From: [Flexibacter] sp. ATCC 35208
Lineage (GTDB): Bacteria; Bacteroidota; Bacteroidia; Chitinophagales; Chitinophagaceae
Assembly: GCF_001975825.1 (NCBI RefSeq)
Contig: NZ_MTKN01000027.1
Coordinates: forward strand, 1-64,000
Length of the DNA: 64,000 nt
Direction: 5' to 3'
Shown: in pieces, positions 8,580 through 31,771 of the stretch
Position numbering within the stretch: position 1 is the first letter of the stretch
How the letters are laid out: each line of letters opens with the position of its first letter
The notes under the pieces: generated by a model
Seen by the model: only the letters and a program-made list of their open reading frames with translations
Database searches by the model: none
What the model was told of the DNA's origin: nothing
Position numbers and translations under genes: made by a program

Positions 8580-10934
8580 ATGAAGGCAAATTACTTAGAC
8601 GAACTGAATGAGCGGCAGCGCGAAGCAGTTGAGCATATCAAAGGCCCGCTGATGATCGTAGCGGGTGCTGGTTCCGGTAAGACGAAAGTACTTACCACCC
8701 GTATCGCCCACCTGCTCCACAATGGTGTAGATGCTTTTAATATTCTCTCACTGACCTTTACCAACAAGGCAGCTAAAGAGATGAAGGAACGTGTGGAAAA
8801 AATTCTCGGCGGTACCGAAGCCAGGAACCTCTACATCGGTACCTTCCACTCCGTATTTGCCCGTTTGTTAAGGGCCGAAGCACATCGCCTCGGTTACCCC
8901 AACGACTTTACTATTTATGATGCTGACGATGCGAAAAGCGTACTGAAAACAATCATAAACGAGCAAAATCTGGACGATAAACATTATAAACCTAATATGG
9001 TCTATAACCGCATATCCTCCGCCAAAAATAACCTCGTAGGCCCTGAAGAATACCAGCACGATTACGCCATCCAGCAGGAAGATATGAGGGCCAACCGCCC
9101 CATGACCGGCAAGCTGTATGAAATGTATGCCAAACGCTGCTTCAAAAACGGCGCAATGGACTTCGATGACCTGCTCTTCAAAATGTACCAACTCCTGAAG
9201 AACTTCCCCGAAGTACTGCACAAATACCAGCACAAATTCAAATATATCATGATCGATGAGTACCAGGATACCAACCCTGCTCAGTACGAAATCATCAAAC
9301 TGCTGGGCGCTGCACATGAAAATATCTGTGTGGTGGGAGACGATGCACAAAGTATCTACTCCTTCCGTGGTGCTACCATCCAGAACATCCTCCAGTTCGA
9401 GAAGGATTACAATGATGCCAGGGTGGTAAAACTGGAACAGAACTATCGTAGTACCAAATCCATTCTCCAGGTTGCCAACGATGTGATCGCTAACAACAAA
9501 GGACAGATCGAAAAGAACCTGTGGACAGACAATCCAAATGGTGAAAAGATAAAACTGGTGCGCACCATGACCGACAATGAAGAAGGCAAATTCGTAGCCG
9601 AAACCATTGCCGAACAAAAACTGCGCAACCACTACGCAAACAGGGATTTTGCTATCCTGTACCGTACCAATGCACAAAGCCGTGCATTTGAAGAAAACCT
9701 GCGCCGCAAAGCTGTACCGTACCGTATCTATGGTGGTATCTCATTCTATCAGCGTAAGGAAATCAAAGACTTCGTGGCTTACCTGCGCATCGTGATGAAC
9801 CCATCCGATGAAGAAAGCCTGAAACGCATCATCAACTACCCGATCCGCGGAATTGGTAAAACCACTGTCGAAAAAGTAGTGATCTTCGCCAACGACCACA
9901 ATATCACCTTCTGGAACGTGCTGGAAAGAGCGCAGGAATTCGGATTTAAAGGAGGTACACTGGAAGCTATTGAGAACTTCGTGACTATGATCCGTAGTTT
10001 CCAGGCTATGCAGGGTAAACACAATGCTTACGACATCGCCGTACAGGTGGGTAAGTCTACTAACATCGTCAAAGAACTCTTCAACGATAAAACGACCGAA
10101 GGTCTCGCCCGCTACGAGAACATCCAGGAGCTCCTGAACTCTGTGAAGGAGTTTACCGAAACACCTACTGAAGATGGTGAGCTGCTGGAAAAATCACTGG
10201 GTACCTATCTGCAGCAAATCACCCTGCTCACCGATGCTGACAAAGGCAACGACGAAGACAGTGATGTGGTGAAACTCATGACGATCCATGCTGCAAAAGG
10301 CCTGGAATTCCCGGTAGTATTCAGCGTAGGTCTGGAAGAAAACCTTTTCCCAAGTTCCCTCTCTATCAATTCAAGAGAAGAGCTGGAAGAAGAACGCCGT
10401 CTTTTCTATGTGGTGATCACCCGTGCGAAGGCAAGATTGTTTCTCACTTATGCAAACAGCCGTTACCGCTTCGGTCAGCTGGTCAATAATGAATCCAGCC
10501 GTTTCCTCGAGGAAATGCCTGAGCAATACATTGACCGCAGCTATGCAGGTGGTGGTGCTGTAGGTACCAGAAGCCCGATCAACAGTGGTGGTGGCCTATG
10601 GGGCAATGGCGGTGGTAGCAACATGTTCGACCGTATGCAGAAGAAAACACCAGGTAGCCAGTCTTCCCAGCCTGTTGCCGGTCCACGCCCTGCACCTAAA
10701 CCCGTTGCCAACGGTGCTGCCAGCACCCATGTGCCTACTGCCGGTTTTACGCCGGACGATCCGGCTACTATGGAAGCTGGTATGGATGTGGAACACCAGA
10801 AATTCGGTTTTGGTACCATCCTCAATATGGAGGGAGCACCTAACAATCGTATTGCAACCGTTGTATTCCCTAAGGGCGGCGGGGAGAAAAAGATTATGCT
10901 GAACTATGCACGATTGATGATCGTAAAGAAATAA
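8580..10934 (+). CDS. pcrA: UvrD/PcrA-family DNA helicase
   Basis: This is a superfamily 1A 3'-5' DNA helicase of 784 residues, acting in repair and in clearing the replication fork. The Walker A motif AGAGSGKT is at residues 28-35. Walker B/DEYQDTN, motif III GDDAQSIYSFRGA, motif IV QNYRST, and motif V LMTIHAAKGLEFPVVF with VVITRAK follow in order. A Gly/Pro-rich linker (about 665-725) leads to a C-terminal Tudor-like domain (GMDVEHQKFGFGTI) as in PcrA, which binds RNA polymerase. Its TAA overlaps the recX ATG by 1 nt. Confidence 0.95.
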   Translation: MKANYLDELNERQREAVEHIKGPLMIVAGAGSGKTKVLTTRIAHLLHNGVDAFNILSLTFTNKAAKEMKERVEKILGGTEARNLYIGTFHSVFARLLRAEAHRLGYPNDFTIYDADDAKSVLKTIINEQNLDDKHYKPNMVYNRISSAKNNLVGPEEYQHDYAIQQEDMRANRPMTGKLYEMYAKRCFKNGAMDFDDLLFKMYQLLKNFPEVLHKYQHKFKYIMIDEYQDTNPAQYEIIKLLGAAHENICVVGDDAQSIYSFRGATIQNILQFEKDYNDARVVKLEQNYRSTKSILQVANDVIANNKGQIEKNLWTDNPNGEKIKLVRTMTDNEEGKFVAETIAEQKLRNHYANRDFAILYRTNAQSRAFEENLRRKAVPYRIYGGISFYQRKEIKDFVAYLRIVMNPSDEESLKRIINYPIRGIGKTTVEKVVIFANDHNITFWNVLERAQEFGFKGGTLEAIENFVTMIRSFQAMQGKHNAYDIAVQVGKSTNIVKELFNDKTTEGLARYENIQELLNSVKEFTETPTEDGELLEKSLGTYLQQITLLTDADKGNDEDSDVVKLMTIHAAKGLEFPVVFSVGLEENLFPSSLSINSREELEEERRLFYVVITRAKARLFLTYANSRYRFGQLVNNESSRFLEEMPEQYIDRSYAGGGAVGTRSPINSGGGLWGNGGGSNMFDRMQKKTPGSQSSQPVAGPRPAPKPVANGAASTHVPTAGFTPDDPATMEAGMDVEHQKFGFGTILNMEGAPNNRIATVVFPKGGGEKKIMLNYARLMIVKK

Positions 10935-11395
10935 TGCAGACTGCTATTCTCTTAAAATTACGTCATTACTGTGCCTATCAGGAACGCAGCCACAGCGAGG
11001 TGAAAACAAAATGCCTTGAGCTGGGGCTGCGTGGTGATGAGATCGAGGAAGCTATTGCAGCGCTGATTGCTGACAACTTCCTGAACGAAGAGCGATTTGC
11101 CCGTGCCTATGCCGGTGGTAAATTCCGCTCACAGAAGTGGGGACGCAAAAAGATCCTGGCAGGCCTCAGGCAACACCAGGTATCTGCTTACTGCATCAAA
11201 AAAGGCATGGAAGAGATTGATGATGAGGATTATATGGATGTGCTGCAATCGCTGGTGGAGAAGAAATATGCGTCTCTGGAAGGAGAACAATACCTGAAAA
11301 GACAGTACAAGACGACCCAATACCTGTTACAAAAAGGGTTCGAACCCGAGCTGGTAAGTGAAACCCTTAGACAAATTGCAAAAGATGGGCTATAA
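10934..11395 (+). CDS. recX: Regulatory protein RecX
   Basis: RecX modulates RecA filaments. The protein has 153 residues and the three-helix repeats typical of the family: LRHYCAYQERSHSEVKTKCLELG near the N-terminus, IADNFLNEERFARAYAGGKFRSQKWGRKKILAGLRQH in the middle and YLLQKGFEPELVSETLR at the end. It starts within the helicase stop codon (TAATG), so the two are translationally coupled; both are DNA-repair genes. recA is not in the window. Confidence 0.93.
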   Translation: MQTAILLKLRHYCAYQERSHSEVKTKCLELGLRGDEIEEAIAALIADNFLNEERFARAYAGGKFRSQKWGRKKILAGLRQHQVSAYCIKKGMEEIDDEDYMDVLQSLVEKKYASLEGEQYLKRQYKTTQYLLQKGFEPELVSETLRQIAKDGL

Positions 11396-15502: not shown

Positions 15503-15539
15503 CCAAAAGGGCGGTCAGCTTCGCTGACCGCCCTTTTGG
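15503..15539. terminator. 17-bp hairpin with TTC loop after the glycosyltransferase gene
   Basis: CCAAAAGGGCGGTCAGC pairs perfectly with GCTGACCGCCCTTTTGG around a 3-nt loop. On the minus strand the tip reads GCGAAGC. It is likely a terminator for the plus-strand gene, and forms a pair with the next hairpin 4 nt away. Confidence 0.75.
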
Positions 15540-15543
15540 CTTT

Positions 15544-15582
15544 CTAATATTTTCCGGCTGCGAAGCAGCCGGAAAATATTAG
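15544..15582. terminator. 18-bp hairpin with GAA loop at the end of the DHOR gene
   Basis: CTAATATTTTCCGGCTGC pairs perfectly with its complement around GAA, giving a GCGAAGC tip on the plus strand. It includes the stop codon of the minus-strand di-haem gene (15579-15581). It lies between convergent genes. Confidence 0.65.
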
Positions 15583-16958
15583 AGTGATTTTAAAAATGAT
15601 ATCACCTGTCCCCGTTCCCCCGCCGTCAACTCAGTAAACTTCCCCTTCACCTTCGCCGCCTCCCCATCATGCCACAACACAGCCTCTTCCAACGTCCTCG
15701 CCCTTCCATCATGCAAATAAAACGGCGTCCCATTCGTCTTCTCAAATAACCCCACACCCCATAGCGCCGGCGTTTTCCACTCACTACCACCCGCTCTGAA
15801 ATCCGGTCTGCCATCCGCCAGTCCATCACCCATATCATGCAATAACAGATCTGTATAAGGATGTATACGCTGATTACTTAAATACGGATACCGCACATCC
15901 ACCCCAGTTTGAATCGTTGGAATATGACAATTGGAACACCCCACCTGTGCAAACAACTTTTCACCCGCCATGATATCTGTATTGGTTGTATTCCTCCTGG
16001 CCGGCACCGCCAGAGACAACAAATAAAACTCCACTGAATTCAGCAACGAATCCGCCAGCTCCGGATCATCATTCAGGTTATCCATCTGTGGTTGTCCAAA
16101 CGTACTTTCCTGTGGAAAGATCCTGTTCGTAATCCCCATATCCTGCTGATACGCTGCCGCTGCTTGTGTAAGGATCGTAGCGGTATTCGCCTTCATCCCA
16201 AACCGACCTAACATCATTTTTTGTTGCGAAGAATCATATACATAATTAGGTCTTCCACTTATACCATCTCCATTTGCATCATTTTCATCTGCAAAAGATA
16301 GGATCGTCGATTCAGGAATGTTGACCAGCAATCCCAACCCAAAGAAAGGCGGCGCCATACGTGGCGACACCATCAGGTCCACAGGTAGTGAAGTATAAGG
16401 ATTGACGAAAGTATAAGTGGGTTTACGTAGCGTAGTAACTGTACCATCGGGATATGTAAACACCTGCTCAGTATAGGTGATCTTCACAGAAGCTTCTGCT
16501 GTCTTCCCGAACACTGCCAGATCCTGCAATTGTAAACCAAATCCCGGCACCGCCAGCGGCCCTCCATGTGCATCCGTACCAGGAATACTCAACCGCATCA
16601 GCATCGAGGATGTCACTGTACCTGTGGTAGGACTTCCCTTTCCATCGTTATGGTGACAGCTACGACAACTCACATTGTTGAAGATAGGCCCTAAACCACT
16701 ATTGATAGTAGCCGGTGCTGTTACGAATGTCTGGTCTACGCTGTTATCGCCCAGGTCGTGTACATGCTGGTCATAGCTGCTCAGGCCAGGTATGACGTTG
16801 CCAAAAGCTTTGCTGGTCGCATCAAATACGGTAGCAGCGCCTCCGCTCAATCGCGGGTCATATTCCTCATCGCTGAAGGGAGCCGGTTTGGTACACATCA
16901 TCAGCAATGAAGGGCTGGCTAATAAAGCTGCTGCTAAATAGATCTTCCTTATCCGCAT
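15579..16958 (-). CDS. Di-haem oxidoreductase (DHOR/DUF1111) lipoprotein
   Basis: This 459-residue protein belongs to the DHOR (thiol oxidoreductase, PF06537) family, related to di-haem cytochrome c peroxidases. Two haem-c motifs are visible: C98-R-S-C101-H102 and C341-S-N-C344-H345. From the chosen start the N-terminus is a lipoprotein signal with the lipobox ending at C22 (SLLMMC), so it should be anchored in the periplasm or outer membrane. An ATG 36 nt earlier (16994) would give an odd hydrophobic extension. In known gene pairs DHOR accompanies imelysin (IrpA/IrpB of cyanobacteria) in iron uptake. It is the last gene of a four-gene operon. Confidence 0.87.
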   Translation of the reverse strand: MRIRKIYLAAALLASPSLLMMCTKPAPFSDEEYDPRLSGGAATVFDATSKAFGNVIPGLSSYDQHVHDLGDNSVDQTFVTAPATINSGLGPIFNNVSCRSCHHNDGKGSPTTGTVTSSMLMRLSIPGTDAHGGPLAVPGFGLQLQDLAVFGKTAEASVKITYTEQVFTYPDGTVTTLRKPTYTFVNPYTSLPVDLMVSPRMAPPFFGLGLLVNIPESTILSFADENDANGDGISGRPNYVYDSSQQKMMLGRFGMKANTATILTQAAAAYQQDMGITNRIFPQESTFGQPQMDNLNDDPELADSLLNSVEFYLLSLAVPARRNTTNTDIMAGEKLFAQVGCSNCHIPTIQTGVDVRYPYLSNQRIHPYTDLLLHDMGDGLADGRPDFRAGGSEWKTPALWGVGLFEKTNGTPFYLHDGRARTLEEAVLWHDGEAAKVKGKFTELTAGERGQVISFLKSL

Positions 16959-17014
16959 TGAAAAGTATATTAAAAAAGTAGCCGGCCTTCGCAAGAAGTG
17001 CCGGCTGGTTCAAA

Positions 17015-18091
17015 TCAATCTTTGATATTAGTGAGGATGAAATTCTCAAGATCGTCTTCAATGGAGCCTTTCAGCGTTACCAGGTTACTCATGGTGGTTG
17101 CGCATAAGCCTCTTTGGCTAATGATCGCTTTTTCATAAGGCATGGTGATAGCATCAAAAGAACCGATGGCTGCCTGGAACTGTTGCTGTATCTTATTGTC
17201 CAGGCTCAGGTTTTTAGCTGCTACCAGCGCATGGAGACTTTTACCATTGCTACCCAGAAAGGTTCCCATATATACGTCATAAGCACCCACAATATTGTTC
17301 TTGAAGTCAGTCGTTGAGTTACCGCTGAATGGTGATTCTACAATATTCGGATCCTGTGCATCATAAGGCTCCTTCATTTTAGACTCACCTACTTCTCCGC
17401 AGATGTCTGCCAAAGCCACTGCCATAGCGGTAAAAAGGCTTTGCTTGGTTGGGAATGGCTGCGCACCTATACCTGCATCCATTACTTTTGCAGAGTAATT
17501 ACCACCCGAAGTGATCCAGCTGTCACGCAGTTTAGTACAGGTATTTTTCAGGTCTATAGTCAAACTGGTAATGTATTTCTTTTCACGGGCAGTCAGGTCA
17601 GTGGCAGCGCGATTACCATCGGTACCCCACAGAATATATTCAATCGGGTGGTAACCTCTCAGAGAGAGTGTAGCCAGCCCTTCGATGTCAGCTATTTCCA
17701 GTGCATTGGAGCTATTGAGCAGAGAGTCCATTTGTACATAGTCAACCGGCCATGTATCCATATTTGGATCATAGTTATCATCTTCAACAGGGCCGAACAG
17801 GTAGCCTTCGCATTGTTCCCAGGTCTTACGCATATCTTTCCAGGCTGTCTTTGCAGCAGTCAGATTCGCTTCGGTAGGTGAGGAGTTGAGGGCAGTTACT
17901 ACATTGTTGAAAGTAGTAGCTTTAGCCAGGAGGTCTTCATAGCCTGGAATAGCCGTTTTGTTTACAAAGTTTACAATCACCGAATCTTCCAGGGCAGCAA
18001 AATCACTAGTAGAAGTATCGTTGTCGCTGTTTTTGCTACAGGACAGGATAGTAAAGACTCCTACAGTGAATAGTAATACAAGTTTTTTCAT
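17015..18091 (-). CDS. Imelysin-family (peptidase M75/IrpA-like) lipoprotein
   Basis: This 358-residue protein starts with a lipoprotein signal (lipobox ending at C18, TILSC). The family signature GxHxxE is present as G146-Y-H-P-I-E151 in RGYHPIEYILWG. Imelysins are two-bundle helical periplasmic proteins linked to iron acquisition (ICMP, IrpA, EfeO/AlgP7 relatives), and peptidase activity is doubtful. It lies 9 nt downstream of the Rieske gene and is followed after 56 nt by the di-haem gene, so the products probably act together. Confidence 0.9.
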   Translation of the reverse strand: MKKLVLLFTVGVFTILSCSKNSDNDTSTSDFAALEDSVIVNFVNKTAIPGYEDLLAKATTFNNVVTALNSSPTEANLTAAKTAWKDMRKTWEQCEGYLFGPVEDDNYDPNMDTWPVDYVQMDSLLNSSNALEIADIEGLATLSLRGYHPIEYILWGTDGNRAATDLTAREKKYITSLTIDLKNTCTKLRDSWITSGGNYSAKVMDAGIGAQPFPTKQSLFTAMAVALADICGEVGESKMKEPYDAQDPNIVESPFSGNSTTDFKNNIVGAYDVYMGTFLGSNGKSLHALVAAKNLSLDNKIQQQFQAAIGSFDAITMPYEKAIISQRGLCATTMSNLVTLKGSIEDDLENFILTNIKD

Positions 18092-18100
18092 GATGTTTGG

Positions 18101-18535
18101 TTATATATATATGATCAAATTGGTAGCCGTGGTTTCCGTTTGCAGCGTAGGAAGTGGTTTTTCAGCAGGGCCTTTTTTGACCTTACCGGTTTTATCATAC
18201 TGGCTGCCATGGAGGCTGCACAGGTAGCCGTTGCCTGTAGGTACGAGCGGATTGTGCTGATGTGTACAGCGTAGTAGTAAAGCCTGATATGTATTGTCAG
18301 GGCTCTTTTGTACGGCTATTTCGTATTCGTAGTTTTTGGGGCTGATGATTTGTGCATTGCCTGCATCAAAGAGAGTCAGGGGCACAGTGACCTTACGGTC
18401 GTCAACAGTAGTTTTAAACCCTTTCTGTGTGGTGCCGCAGGCAGCCAGAAAGTCAGCTATAGAAAAAGATACAGCGCCCAGTACACAGATTTTGCAGGTA
18501 TCTTTCAGAAAAGTTCTTCTGCCATTGTTTTCCAT
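18101..18535 (-). CDS. Rieske [2Fe-2S] lipoprotein
   Basis: This 144-residue protein has a twin-arginine signal (R6-R7 in GRRTFLKD), a hydrophobic stretch and a lipobox ending at C33 (DFLAAC). The Rieske ligands are C90-T-H92 and C106-S-L-H109, enough for one [2Fe-2S] cluster. It is short for a cytochrome bc1 subunit, and no cytochrome b gene is nearby. Its place between a barrel gene and imelysin/DHOR suggests that it passes electrons to or from the di-haem protein. The Tat signal implies export of the folded, cluster-loaded protein. Confidence 0.88.
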   Translation of the reverse strand: MENNGRRTFLKDTCKICVLGAVSFSIADFLAACGTTQKGFKTTVDDRKVTVPLTLFDAGNAQIISPKNYEYEIAVQKSPDNTYQALLLRCTHQHNPLVPTGNGYLCSLHGSQYDKTGKVKKGPAEKPLPTLQTETTATNLIIYI

Positions 18536-18547
18536 AAATCACGATTG

Positions 18548-19807
18548 TCAGAATGAGTAACCGATACCAATATTCAGGAGAGAGTTATTGACCTTGTAAG
18601 GAACCCGTGCAGGGCTTGGATTGATGACCAGTGCTGGGTTTTCAGCGCCGGTATGCAACAATCTCACATCTGCCTTGATCGCTATGTTGGGTATGGGCAG
18701 GTAGCTGAAACCGGCAATAATATGTTGCTGTTTCAGTTTACCATCGTAGATACCGTTCGACGGGATGGACGAATTGAGGTCAAGTATTTCATACCTGCCA
18801 AATACGTTCAGCTGTTGCTCCTTGTACTTCACAGATTTTTCCAGCAGGTTATAGGCCAGTTCGCCATAAGCACCGTACATCACCTTGGCCACGTTGTTGG
18901 CGTATGCCCTGTTTACATCAGCTGCATTGGGGAAGGAAATGATTGTACCAATTGCTTTGGCAGAGAATCCATTGCTGCTGTACATAATATCTGCTTCGCC
19001 CAGGTAGATGGGGAGGCTGAAGGTACCATGACTAAGTTTCAGACTATCCGACTTACGGGCATTGAGGCCATTGGTACCACCGGCATAACCGGATACCTGG
19101 AAGCGGAAGTTCTGCCAGTAGTATTGCAGACTGGCGGTGACAGCGAGGTTATTGGCATAAGCGCCACTCCCTTCTGCCTTGCCATCTACCACACCCGAAC
19201 CGTGAGAGAAGGTGGCGTCGTTCAGGCCATTGACCACTGCCAGTGTATAGTTGAGCGGTATACGGCGTGCCCTCCCGTAAAAGCCGATACCCAGTTCCCG
19301 CCAGGTAGCGGGGATCACGAGTTGCTCAACCATCGGTCTTTCTACACCATTGAAATTGACAGGGAGGTGGTTTTCGTTCAGGATACCGATGCGCGGCACG
19401 AACAAGCCAGCTACGATGTACTGGCGGGGATTGAGGCTAAATTTAAGGTAGGCCTGTTCCATCGAAATTTCACCGGCAAAGCCGTTGTCTACGGCATTGG
19501 GTTGAACTTTCGCATTTTCCAGTTCCATTTCGCTAAAGAAGGCGATTCTGGAATTAAACTGGTGTCCTACAAATAATACGACCCTTTCAAGCGTGGCGCG
19601 GGCCATTTGTTCATTCATATCACGCTGGTAGAACGCTGAGCCATAGCCGGAAATGACAGTTCTGCTGGAAGATGTACCTGCAGTCAGAGAATCTTCTCCG
19701 GTATTAAGGACTAATTTCTGCGCCGGCGTGATTTGTTGAGAGAAAATTGGTTGAAAGGAGATTACGATGCTGCCTAGTGTTAGGATCAGCGCATGCTTCA
19801 GTATCAT
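18548..19807 (-). CDS. Outer-membrane beta-barrel porin-like protein
   Basis: This 419-residue protein has a signal peptide (cleavage probably after about residue 23, SFQPIFSQQ). It has alternating amphipathic strands throughout and an aromatic C-terminus (GIGYSF), all typical of outer-membrane barrels. The body resembles phosphate-selective OprO/OprP-like porins in general layout, with no TonB plug. It is the first gene of the operon with the Rieske, imelysin and DHOR genes, 12 nt before the Rieske gene. Iron passage is inferred from the neighbours only. Confidence 0.8.
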   Translation of the reverse strand: MILKHALILTLGSIVISFQPIFSQQITPAQKLVLNTGEDSLTAGTSSSRTVISGYGSAFYQRDMNEQMARATLERVVLFVGHQFNSRIAFFSEMELENAKVQPNAVDNGFAGEISMEQAYLKFSLNPRQYIVAGLFVPRIGILNENHLPVNFNGVERPMVEQLVIPATWRELGIGFYGRARRIPLNYTLAVVNGLNDATFSHGSGVVDGKAEGSGAYANNLAVTASLQYYWQNFRFQVSGYAGGTNGLNARKSDSLKLSHGTFSLPIYLGEADIMYSSNGFSAKAIGTIISFPNAADVNRAYANNVAKVMYGAYGELAYNLLEKSVKYKEQQLNVFGRYEILDLNSSIPSNGIYDGKLKQQHIIAGFSYLPIPNIAIKADVRLLHTGAENPALVINPSPARVPYKVNNSLLNIGIGYSF

Positions 19808-19906
19808 GGAGTTGTTTTACAGAGAGACAAATGTCTACTGAAAAACAACGGGTTACATTACGCAAGACGGAAAATTAATGATCCAAAACGGAAATATTTG
19901 TTATCA

Positions 19907-29160: not shown

Positions 29161-31584
29161 TTAAAACTTGAATGCAACTGTACCAGTGAAGCTTCTGGAC
29201 TTCTGAGGATTCATGGAAGAATAACCAATCCAGTAGTGTTTGTCAGTCAGGTTATCTACTTTCGCGCCGAACCTGAATTTAGGTGTATCGTAAGAAAGTG
29301 CAGCATTCAGTACTGTATATGCTGGAAGTACAAAAACCCCCGTAGTTCTGCTGTTTACAATCTTCACATCGCTGGCGTAGTTACCACCTGCACCAAAGCT
29401 CAGACCTTTCAGTTTACCATTTGAAATACGGTAGTTCAACCACAGGTTAGCAGAGGTTGGAGAAGACGCTGTACCTGGACGAAGACCATTTACATCATCG
29501 CTTGTATTAATGTAATAAGAATCGTTATAGCTATAACCCGCTACTACGCTGAAGCCCTGGAATGGATTAGCAATAATGCTTACTTCTACACCTTTGCTCT
29601 TCTGGCTACCATTCTGAACATAGAAATTAGGATGTTCAGCATCAGAACGTAAAACGTCTTTTACTTTGATATCATAGTAGCTAATAGTACCGGTCAGTTT
29701 ACCATCAAACATATCCATCTTCACACCACCTTCCCATTGATTAGCCTGTTCTGGCTTGGAAATAGTGGTCTCAGTTTCACTTACGTAGATCAGTGAATTC
29801 GTGTTGGTAAAGCCATTCTGGTAGTTGCCAAATAAGGACAGACGATCCTTAACAACCTGGTAAACGATACCAAATTTAGGAGACAATGCAGTCTGATTAT
29901 ATCCACCGGATGTAGTACCAGTAGCAGGGCTATAATTTCCTTTGAAATCATAGTAGTCGATACGTAAACCTGCTTGTACCATCAGTTGATCTGTAATGTT
30001 GAACACATCAGATGCATATGCACTGTAAACGTATTTTTTGTAGATGTATGGATATTCTACAGAACTCCCCAATGACTTGTAAACATCGTTCATGTTTGTA
30101 GCATTGAAATCACGGTAGTTTGATACAGTTCCATAAGTAGGTACCTGATCATATTCAGCACTCTTGAACATCTGGTTGGAGTTCAGGTAGAAGAAGTCGA
30201 TCCCACCTACAAAGCGGTTTCTGAATTTACCAATTTTGAAATCACCGATGAAGTTGTGTTGAATTTCAGTGATGCTTTGTTTACTGTTTTCAGTAGACTG
30301 ATCCTGACGGGAGATAGAATCACCTGGCAGCAGGTAGAAGTAAGGACCAAAACCGTCAGAATAACTGTTGGTCATAGATACAACTGTCTGTGTGTTCCAC
30401 TGGTCAGATACCTTATAATTCATGCTACCAAAAAAGTTTGCATTGCGGCTGGTAGCAGTCAGATCTTCGTTGATGAATGCACGGTTGTAATCTATTTTCA
30501 GTTTATCAGCTCTCTGTGCCGTCAGATCAGCGGTAGTTAACCACCATGGCATAAAGAAGAATGTATTACCGTTACCTTCTCCACTCATGAATTCTGCTTC
30601 GAGTGATATATTTAATCTGTCGTTGATTTTGTAAGAAAGGCTTGGTGCAAATGCAAATGTTTTGCTATGACCCACATCCATCCAGCTGTCCTGTGTAGTA
30701 TAAGCGGTATTGATACGTAGCAGTATATTCTTCGCAGAATCCAGTGGCGTATTTACATCCGCCATGATGCGGTTGTAATTATAGCTACCACCTGCTACTG
30801 CTACCTCGCCACCAAAATGGTCATAAGGTCTTTTAGTAACACGGTTGATCAAACCACCGTAAGAAGTCAGCTGAGCACCGAACAGTGTGGCGTTAGGGCC
30901 TTTGATTACCTCGATGCTTTCAATATTGCTCGCGTCGATTACAGAAGAAACGTTACCTGCCACACCATTGCGCAATTGGCTCTGGATGGTAAAACCACGT
31001 GAGTTGTAGTACGCTCCACCATCACCACTACGGTTGGTAGCTTCCCACATCTTAGTAATACCAGGTGCATTTCTCATCGCATCATCCACAGTATATACCT
31101 GTTGCTGTGCCAGCAGATCCTTGGTAATCACTGAATATACTGTTGGATTCTCAACATTCGCTAATGGTAATTTAGACACATAATTACTTGAACGTCTTAC
31201 CAATTTAGCCTGATTACCCGTAATTACTATTTCAGAAAGTTGTTTACTGGATACTTCCAGCTGGAACTTCACGGATGCAGTTTTACCAGCTTCTACAGTC
31301 ACATCTTCTGTCTTATTCGCAAAACCTGTAAAAGAAATCGCCACCTGATAGTTACCAGCAGGCACATTTTTAAACACAAACGTACCTGCACCATCAGAAA
31401 CCGTCATAAAACTGGTACCCTGTAAGATTACAGACACATCCGCAGCTGGTTTACCATCAGATGTTACGATCTTACCTTTAATTCCTCCATTATTGTCTTC
31501 TAAAGTAGTAGCAGTAGCGGTATAGAAGAAGGAAACAATCATGCTCAGAACAAGCATGAAGGACTTAATAGTCATCCTTACCAT
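29161..31584 (-). CDS. TonB-dependent siderophore-type receptor
   Basis: This 807-residue outer-membrane receptor has a signal peptide, a carboxypeptidase-regulatory-like domain (about 37-115) and a plug with VITKDLLAQQQVYTVDDAMRNAPGI and YNSRGF, the pattern of FhuE/FhuA-type ferric siderophore receptors. A barrel follows, ending in FTGTVAFKF. Ferric siderophore uptake is the most likely role. Start choice is between 31584 (MVRMTIKSF..) and 31575; the ATG at 31620 adds a non-signal leader. No ECF/FecR pair or ABC importer is adjacent. Confidence 0.88.
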   Translation of the reverse strand: MVRMTIKSFMLVLSMIVSFFYTATATTLEDNNGGIKGKIVTSDGKPAADVSVILQGTSFMTVSDGAGTFVFKNVPAGNYQVAISFTGFANKTEDVTVEAGKTASVKFQLEVSSKQLSEIVITGNQAKLVRRSSNYVSKLPLANVENPTVYSVITKDLLAQQQVYTVDDAMRNAPGITKMWEATNRSGDGGAYYNSRGFTIQSQLRNGVAGNVSSVIDASNIESIEVIKGPNATLFGAQLTSYGGLINRVTKRPYDHFGGEVAVAGGSYNYNRIMADVNTPLDSAKNILLRINTAYTTQDSWMDVGHSKTFAFAPSLSYKINDRLNISLEAEFMSGEGNGNTFFFMPWWLTTADLTAQRADKLKIDYNRAFINEDLTATSRNANFFGSMNYKVSDQWNTQTVVSMTNSYSDGFGPYFYLLPGDSISRQDQSTENSKQSITEIQHNFIGDFKIGKFRNRFVGGIDFFYLNSNQMFKSAEYDQVPTYGTVSNYRDFNATNMNDVYKSLGSSVEYPYIYKKYVYSAYASDVFNITDQLMVQAGLRIDYYDFKGNYSPATGTTSGGYNQTALSPKFGIVYQVVKDRLSLFGNYQNGFTNTNSLIYVSETETTISKPEQANQWEGGVKMDMFDGKLTGTISYYDIKVKDVLRSDAEHPNFYVQNGSQKSKGVEVSIIANPFQGFSVVAGYSYNDSYYINTSDDVNGLRPGTASSPTSANLWLNYRISNGKLKGLSFGAGGNYASDVKIVNSRTTGVFVLPAYTVLNAALSYDTPKFRFGAKVDNLTDKHYWIGYSSMNPQKSRSFTGTVAFKF

Positions 31585-31771
31585 AAACTTTTTGTTATTT
31601 TTTGCGCAGCAAAATTGCAATATAGTAACCTGTTTATCGTGTCGATTCAGGAAAATCGTTTACGCAAAAGGGAAAATTTATGACGGAACCATTCTTTTTT
31701 ACCGAAAAAGCATCGCAATTGTACGGAGGAACTTCTTCTTTTGTGCTTGTTTTTACTGATCAGAGCCTGTT

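Follow-up and report, generated by a model that had tools for sequence, protein, structure and literature searches.

We analysed a stretch of 64,000 nucleotides from [Flexibacter] sp. ATCC 35208 (contig NZ_MTKN01000027.1, positions 1 to 64,000; hereafter the window), in which four consecutive minus-strand genes encode an outer-membrane porin, a Rieske [2Fe-2S] protein, an imelysin and a di-haem protein of the DHOR family. The source genome is Chitinophaga-like, and its closest named relative is Chitinophaga silvisoli (97% identity for the Rieske protein and 92% for DHOR). The four genes are the following:

18548 to 19807, minus strand: outer-membrane porin (POR), open reading frame (ORF) of 419 aa; predicted 16-stranded barrel with glutamates E93/E95/E97 and E117
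18101 to 18535, minus strand: Rieske [2Fe-2S] protein, 144 aa; RR-type signal containing CxxC, a later lipobox-like Cys, and CTH...CSLHGS
17015 to 18091, minus strand: imelysin (M75), probable lipoprotein, 358 aa; GYHPIE near the middle, not the permuted form
15579 to 16958, minus strand: DHOR di-haem protein, probable lipoprotein, 459 aa from ATG; two CxxCH

The original prediction, made from the nucleotide letters, had described four minus-strand genes separated by 12, 9 and 56 nt, and this layout was confirmed, with the DHOR start taken as the ATG at 16958 (the mechanical ORF list extends it to a TTG at 16994). Pfam matched DHOR (1.7e-103), imelysin (2.2e-56) and the Rieske protein (1.6e-10); the CTH...CSLH, GYHPIE and two CxxCH motifs listed at the outset are all present, and Pfam found no TonB, ABC or bc1 component among the four genes, in agreement with the same source. 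The lipoprotein and Tat signals were assigned by eye and motif, without a signal-peptide program, and the NCBIfam Tat model scored the Rieske protein below its cut-off (11.7 of 16.7 bits).

The four-gene set is a real conserved unit of soil Bacteroidota, not an artefact. When one genome per species was scanned with the Rieske alignment, 122 stretches matched, and the best 80, as named loci, were counted; the scan was built on one peptide pattern, and distant forms escape detection. The original prediction had staked its case on co-occurrence of the four families in other genomes, and this is what was found: 54 of the 80 loci carry all four genes in the window's order on one strand. The others comprise 15 DHOR-Rieske-porin loci, seven porin-Rieske loci (three of them cut short), three with Rieske alone near a contig end and one damaged set. 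Imelysin was present in 16 of 60 same-family genomes, 11 of which have porin-Rieske-imelysin-DHOR (G000, G001, G007, G011, G013, G014, G018, G026, G028, G043, where a contig end truncates DHOR, and G044); in G006, G031, G042, G050 and G056 a neighbourhood check found neither a porin nor a Rieske nor a DHOR of this type adjoining imelysin. A phylum sample added two four-gene genomes (G181 and G269). The 67 four-gene loci represent 60 distinct DHOR proteins, seven having been fetched twice. One imelysin was counted in the window's genome, and viral contigs scanned for Rieske gave no relative. No description of the porin/Rieske/imelysin/DHOR combination was found in those portions of the open-licence literature that were searched.

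Examination of 296 phylum genomes resulted in 55 DHOR places, of which 29 adjoin Rieske only, 19 imelysin only, four both and three neither, so that 52 of 55 have imelysin, Rieske or both alongside. Secondary short stretches were dropped from this comparison, 47 listed Rieske rows and 29 imelysin rows were entered, and the class with neither (3) is possibly overcounted. Since the DHOR-Rieske and DHOR-imelysin pairings are both common and are found together in only four of 55 places, the window operon represents a rare overlap of two partnerships. Imelysin is not an obligatory partner, being absent near 29 of the 33 Rieske-linked DHOR places of the sample. At one locus (L193), DHOR has neither imelysin nor Rieske alongside, and a CusA-like pump gene lies nearby.

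When 88 DHOR proteins were placed in a quick tree, those of the four-gene form were set apart by a supported branch (SH-aLRT 98), as were those of the Rieske-porin form (SH-aLRT 100). Six type-2 near-relatives (by choice), rows below 250 aa (by filter) and four-gene loci past a chosen 30 were excluded from the trees. Four porin-Rieske-only loci intermix with four-gene rows in the porin and Rieske trees, requiring at least three changes, a placement that fits repeated loss of imelysin and DHOR.

We refer to DHOR-Rieske-porin without imelysin as the sister module. It was collected from 47 DHOR rows with Rieske and without imelysin, which represent 45 loci, and removal of L137, a damaged four-gene locus, left 44; they include several close relatives, and L181 and L182 share the same DHOR. 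In 13 of the 44 loci, genes of the following kinds lie within 5 kb of DHOR: DtxR (13), FeoB (6), Nramp (1) and ZnuA-family (1). Pfam confirmed DtxR in 12 of the 13 cases, FeoB in L199 and L216, and both Nramp and ZnuA. CusA-like pumps occur within the same distance in 13 sister loci, two of which overlap the FeoB/DtxR/Nramp/ZnuA set. In L199, L200, L201, L213 and L219, DtxR and FeoB precede DHOR and Rieske on one strand, and FeoB and DHOR either overlap or lie up to 186 nt apart, according to the start codon chosen; the porin comes next in four of them and was not found in L201, whose sequence ends soon after. L216 likewise has FeoB ahead of the module, but its DtxR gene is divergent and a ZnuA-family gene comes after the module; DtxR is also divergent beside DHOR in several other sister loci. 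None of the FeoB, DtxR, Nramp, ZnuA-family or CusA genes was seen near DHOR in 18 imelysin-only loci. In a Bizionia iron-regulator mutant, two genes with adjacent locus tags, one for a Rieske protein and one for a 'cytochrome c', go down; the study, in its accessible part, assigns the Rieske gene to complex III (PMC9478572). It may have met the sister module, BZARG_RS03000 and BZARG_RS03005 being candidates for its DHOR and Rieske.

Upstream of the operon lies a promoter motif that recurs elsewhere in the window:

19857 to 19874, minus strand: promoter motif TTTTCCGTCTTGCGTAAT, one mismatch to TTTTCC-N6-CGTAAA; candidate iron-starvation box
19879 to 19894, minus strand: partial copy of the same motif, upstream, 21 nt off
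29161 to 31584, minus strand: TonB-dependent siderophore receptor, TIGR01783 over cut-off, predicted to be co-regulated
31659 to 31676, minus strand: exact TTTTCC-N6-CGTAAA site upstream of this receptor

Allowing at most one mismatch, TTTTCC-N6-CGTAAA was found in 19 of the 39 four-gene promoters lacking a Fur-like box (0.15 expected) and in none of the 17 promoters possessing one. The window's genome contains 12 exact copies, five of which precede five of its nine TIGR01783 receptors (0.009 expected, Poisson P 4e-13), nine being a lower bound since 82 of 204 first-look candidates were scored. The receptors with the motif share 26-48% mutual identity (three compared as fragments), and their promoters are, by eye, alike solely at the motif. 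Further exact copies precede a receptor below the TIGR01783 cut-off (C17), a TonB receptor that fits the B12 type best, likewise below cut-off (C1), and an ECF sigma gene beside FecR (C293); another is located at a contig end (C212). A one-mismatch site was also found upstream of a PepSY_TM gene. Two TTTCC blocks 19-22 nt apart occur in 11 of 56 four-gene promoters, the window's included, and several receptor promoters look alike in this respect by eye. The receptor at 29161-31584 with its exact box lies about 9 kb from the operon's porin.

The first pattern, TTTCCGN5CGTAA, was derived from the four-gene promoters before genome inspection and gave nine matches against four for its reversed control, those at C110, C326 and C330 preceding siderophore receptors; it was relaxed to TTTTCCN6CGTAAA after near-misses were seen. 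For the motif counts in the four-gene promoters, the position of the porin start was a guess based on the length of the protein, which is probably wrong in a few cases, L120, L159 and L169 being examples. The shared motifs predict that the operon belongs to an iron-starvation regulon, and TTTTCC-N6-CGTAAA looks like a candidate, undescribed iron-starvation signal of Chitinophagaceae, often accompanied by a second block about 21 nt off.

Related operons carry a different element. ATTTRGA-N5-TCTAAAT, with at most one mismatch, is present upstream of the porin in 17 of the 56 four-gene promoters (0.02 expected), in Mucilaginibacter and allies; the R was chosen after the Mucilaginibacter sites had been seen, and the published A gives those sites one more mismatch. 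The Fur box predicted for Riemerella, ATTTAGAATTATTCTAAAT, has the same frame, and Riemerella Fur bound four promoter fragments in gel shift, while the abstract of that study, as far as its accessible text goes, gives the classical GATAATGATAATCATTATC instead (PMC5609570). We do not place the window operon under a Riemerella-type Fur box: its promoter, one of the 39 of 56 without the box, shows six mismatches, and the Fur-type palindrome occurs at a single place in the window's genome, below the reversed control.

The outer-membrane barrel originally proposed for the first gene was borne out by its AlphaFold2 model, which has 16 strands (mean pLDDT 80) and matches solved porins in Foldseek with E down to 1.7e-13; by sequence, no Pfam family scored over cut-off, and a profile search of the PDB gave no match up to E 1. 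With 16 strands and no Pfam TonB match, the protein is not a TonB-dependent receptor. Among 77 porins drawn from all branches, E95 and E117 never vary, and E93 and E97 are each kept in 76 (exceptions D and A). Because E93, E95 and E97 alternate along one predicted strand (88-101), they should share one face, presumably the lumen side of the barrel. The fold resembles that of the 16-stranded porins OprP and OprO (Foldseek TM-score 0.58-0.59), whereas conserved glutamates are found here and an arginine ladder there (title of entry 2o4v).

The closest solved relatives of the Rieske protein are, by sequence, b6f/bc1 Rieske proteins (5cxm and 2zt9), and the HGS serine is kept in all 30 four-gene Rieskes examined. 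In contrast to the bc1/b6f proteins, both disulfide cysteines are absent in all 30, and the pair is present in 12 of 38 sister-branch Rieskes. Cytochrome b (PF00033, the sole profile tried) gave no match in the window's genome and matched eight of 14 control genomes, which suggests that the Rieske protein is probably a stand-alone carrier rather than a bc1 subunit. In all 30 signal regions a CxxC directly follows the RR-type motif (18485-18520 in the window), a puzzling conservation, since a cleaved signal would discard both cysteines.

The imelysin passed the M75 test with GxHxxE (PF09375, GYHPIE), its best solved relatives being 3n8u and 4ecg. DHOR passed the PF06537 test, and its two CxxCH sites (CRSCH and CSNCH) as well as Cys22 are invariant in 17 sequences. 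It is annotated as a putative peroxidase. Its AlphaFold2 model is weak (pLDDT 69), too weak for ligand placement; Foldseek with this model retrieved nothing at E 0.001 or better, and the faint matches (best overall E 0.03) include di-haem cytochrome c peroxidases.

Two hairpin features accompany the operon:

16980 to 17006, minus strand: hairpin between imelysin and DHOR, with a T run after it; -18.9 kcal/mol, z -5.3
15503 to 15584, no strand assigned: two tandem hairpins 3' of DHOR, terminator-like in the plus-strand scan, folded on the minus strand

The hairpin at 16980-17006, which the original prediction had missed, is followed by ACTTTTTT and resembles an intrinsic terminator, making it a possible internal terminator or attenuator and leaving co-transcription of the four genes in this strain uncertain. 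A crude criterion detected a structure of this kind in just three of 54 named four-gene loci, one of them that of C. silvisoli; the hairpin thus appears to be a local peculiarity rather than a general operon split. The imelysin-DHOR gap in four-gene loci has a median of 59 nt and is at most 120 nt in 41 of 45 measured. The pair at 15503-15584 is long (17 and 20 base pairs counted) and located between converging genes.

We regard the operon as a variant form of the imelysin/DHOR iron cluster already known; it has a clear sister branch, and its regulon lends itself to testing. An IrpA with a di-haem DUF1111 partner has been described (Xu et al. 2011), in keeping with the original IrpA/IrpB label as far as that pairing goes; the name 'IrpB' was not met in the literature sections searched. 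Fur-regulated imelysin/DUF1111 operons such as PA4370-PA4373 (PMC3143127, as described in its accessible part) likewise have imelysin adjoining a di-haem DUF1111/DHOR protein and a link to iron limitation, whereas here Rieske and porin are added in fixed order and the imelysin is single. The EfeUOB/M ferrous iron system also employs an M75 protein and a haem enzyme for iron (PMC9174327); in contrast, the four genes include no EfeU permease, cupredoxin domain or DyP peroxidase. EfeM, the M75 relative, retained iron in vitro according to the same source.

We consider the four genes to be an iron-starvation-induced outer-membrane redox iron-uptake module, with a probability of roughly 0.6. The iron link put forward originally is backed by the promoter motifs and the sister-module neighbours, and iron would be the substrate. 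The porin may act as a cation channel, in which the conserved glutamate row of the predicted barrel would face the lumen and select cations; the imelysin, as in its family, would bind iron outside the inner membrane; and DHOR and Rieske would form a redox pair altering the oxidation state of iron. We infer a periplasmic redox chain and its direction, most likely from Fe(III) to Fe(II), with Rieske passing electrons to DHOR, the porin serving as the putative path for Fe(II), and a separate inner-membrane transporter, e.g. FeoB, presumably importing it. The proposal that the module is 'self-contained' finds no support: no component crossing the inner membrane is encoded, and in five loci the sister module continues a series that starts with DtxR and FeoB genes.

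Several observations weigh against this reading. Exact motif copies are missing from four of the nine siderophore receptors, three of the 12 copies lie inside ORFs (C13, C221 and C364), and genome sites with at most one mismatch equal the reversed-pattern control (28 vs 28), placement alone being unusual. The internal hairpin makes straightforward co-transcription in this strain less likely. Four loci with both flanks have a porin-Rieske pair and neither imelysin nor DHOR. In the 67 four-gene loci the surroundings of DHOR showed no FeoB, DtxR, Nramp, ZnuA-family or CusA gene, a weak contrast with the sister module because the full 5 kb on both sides of DHOR is available for only 11 of the 67, against 37 of the 44 sister loci. 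Two imelysins showed no specific ferric or haem binding in thermofluor, in the accessible account of Xu et al. Finally, the evidence on electron flow is two-sided, the Rieske protein being bc1/b6f-like and yet without the disulfide.

The direction of the redox step separates the closest alternatives. The FeoB linkage of the sister module favours reduction, and tentatively, at somewhat above one chance in three, the operon would be a TonB-independent outer-membrane ferric-reductase pathway in which the Rieske/di-haem pair reduces Fe(III) outside the inner membrane and a porin lined with glutamates hands Fe(II) on to transporters of the FeoB type, the imelysin-linked and FeoB-linked forms being two branches of one Bacteroidota redox-importer family. 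The peroxidase annotation of DHOR favours oxidation instead: as a peroxidase or oxidase it would convert Fe(II) to Fe(III), which imelysin would then capture, a scheme put forward for EfeB/EfeO, and Rieske would reset DHOR. The cytochrome c peroxidases among the faint fold matches point the same way, as does the report that EfeM kept similar amounts of ferric iron whichever iron form was supplied (PMC9174327, accessible part); however, FeoB, a ferrous transporter, leads into the sister module in five loci, and no Ftr1/EfeU-type permease is among the four genes. We give the oxidative direction about one chance in four. It is unlikely that DHOR, with Rieske as donor, merely removes peroxide at the outer membrane while iron enters by other routes and is not acted on; the annotation would suit such a protective role and co-regulation with iron uptake would be explained by it, but the conserved porin glutamates and the imelysin in the same unit would not.

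A route in which the unit extracts iron from haem appears improbable. It is suggested by two related porin-imelysin-DHOR loci without Rieske, L061 and L067, in which Pfam places a haem oxygenase gene between imelysin and DHOR (8929-9525 and 10403-11032, respectively), but most four-gene loci leave no room for such a gene between imelysin and DHOR (no search was made elsewhere in those genomes), and the two imelysins of Xu et al., in the text available, failed to bind haem. Least credible of all is a Rieske protein that is a respiratory bc1 subunit with an incidental gene order. Its closest solved relatives would agree with this role; bc1 membership was nevertheless rejected in view of the unmatched PF00033 (the one cytochrome b profile tried), the absent disulfide cysteines and the gene order kept in 54 of 80 loci.

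PioABC and the porin-cytochrome conduits bring together the same trio of a porin, a c-type cytochrome and an Fe-S protein. In the present operon the haems number only two and the barrel has 16 strands; on barrel size alone, a haem wire running through it was considered unlikely and was not retained.

Iron usually crosses the outer membrane either by TonB-driven uptake of ferric complexes or by passive entry of ferrous iron through general porins. If the proposed reading is true, a dedicated redox pair together with a dedicated cation porin would constitute a third outer-membrane iron route. It would also provide a lead to the function of DHOR, a poorly understood family, and it offers a candidate iron-starvation box for Chitinophagaceae that is open to direct testing.

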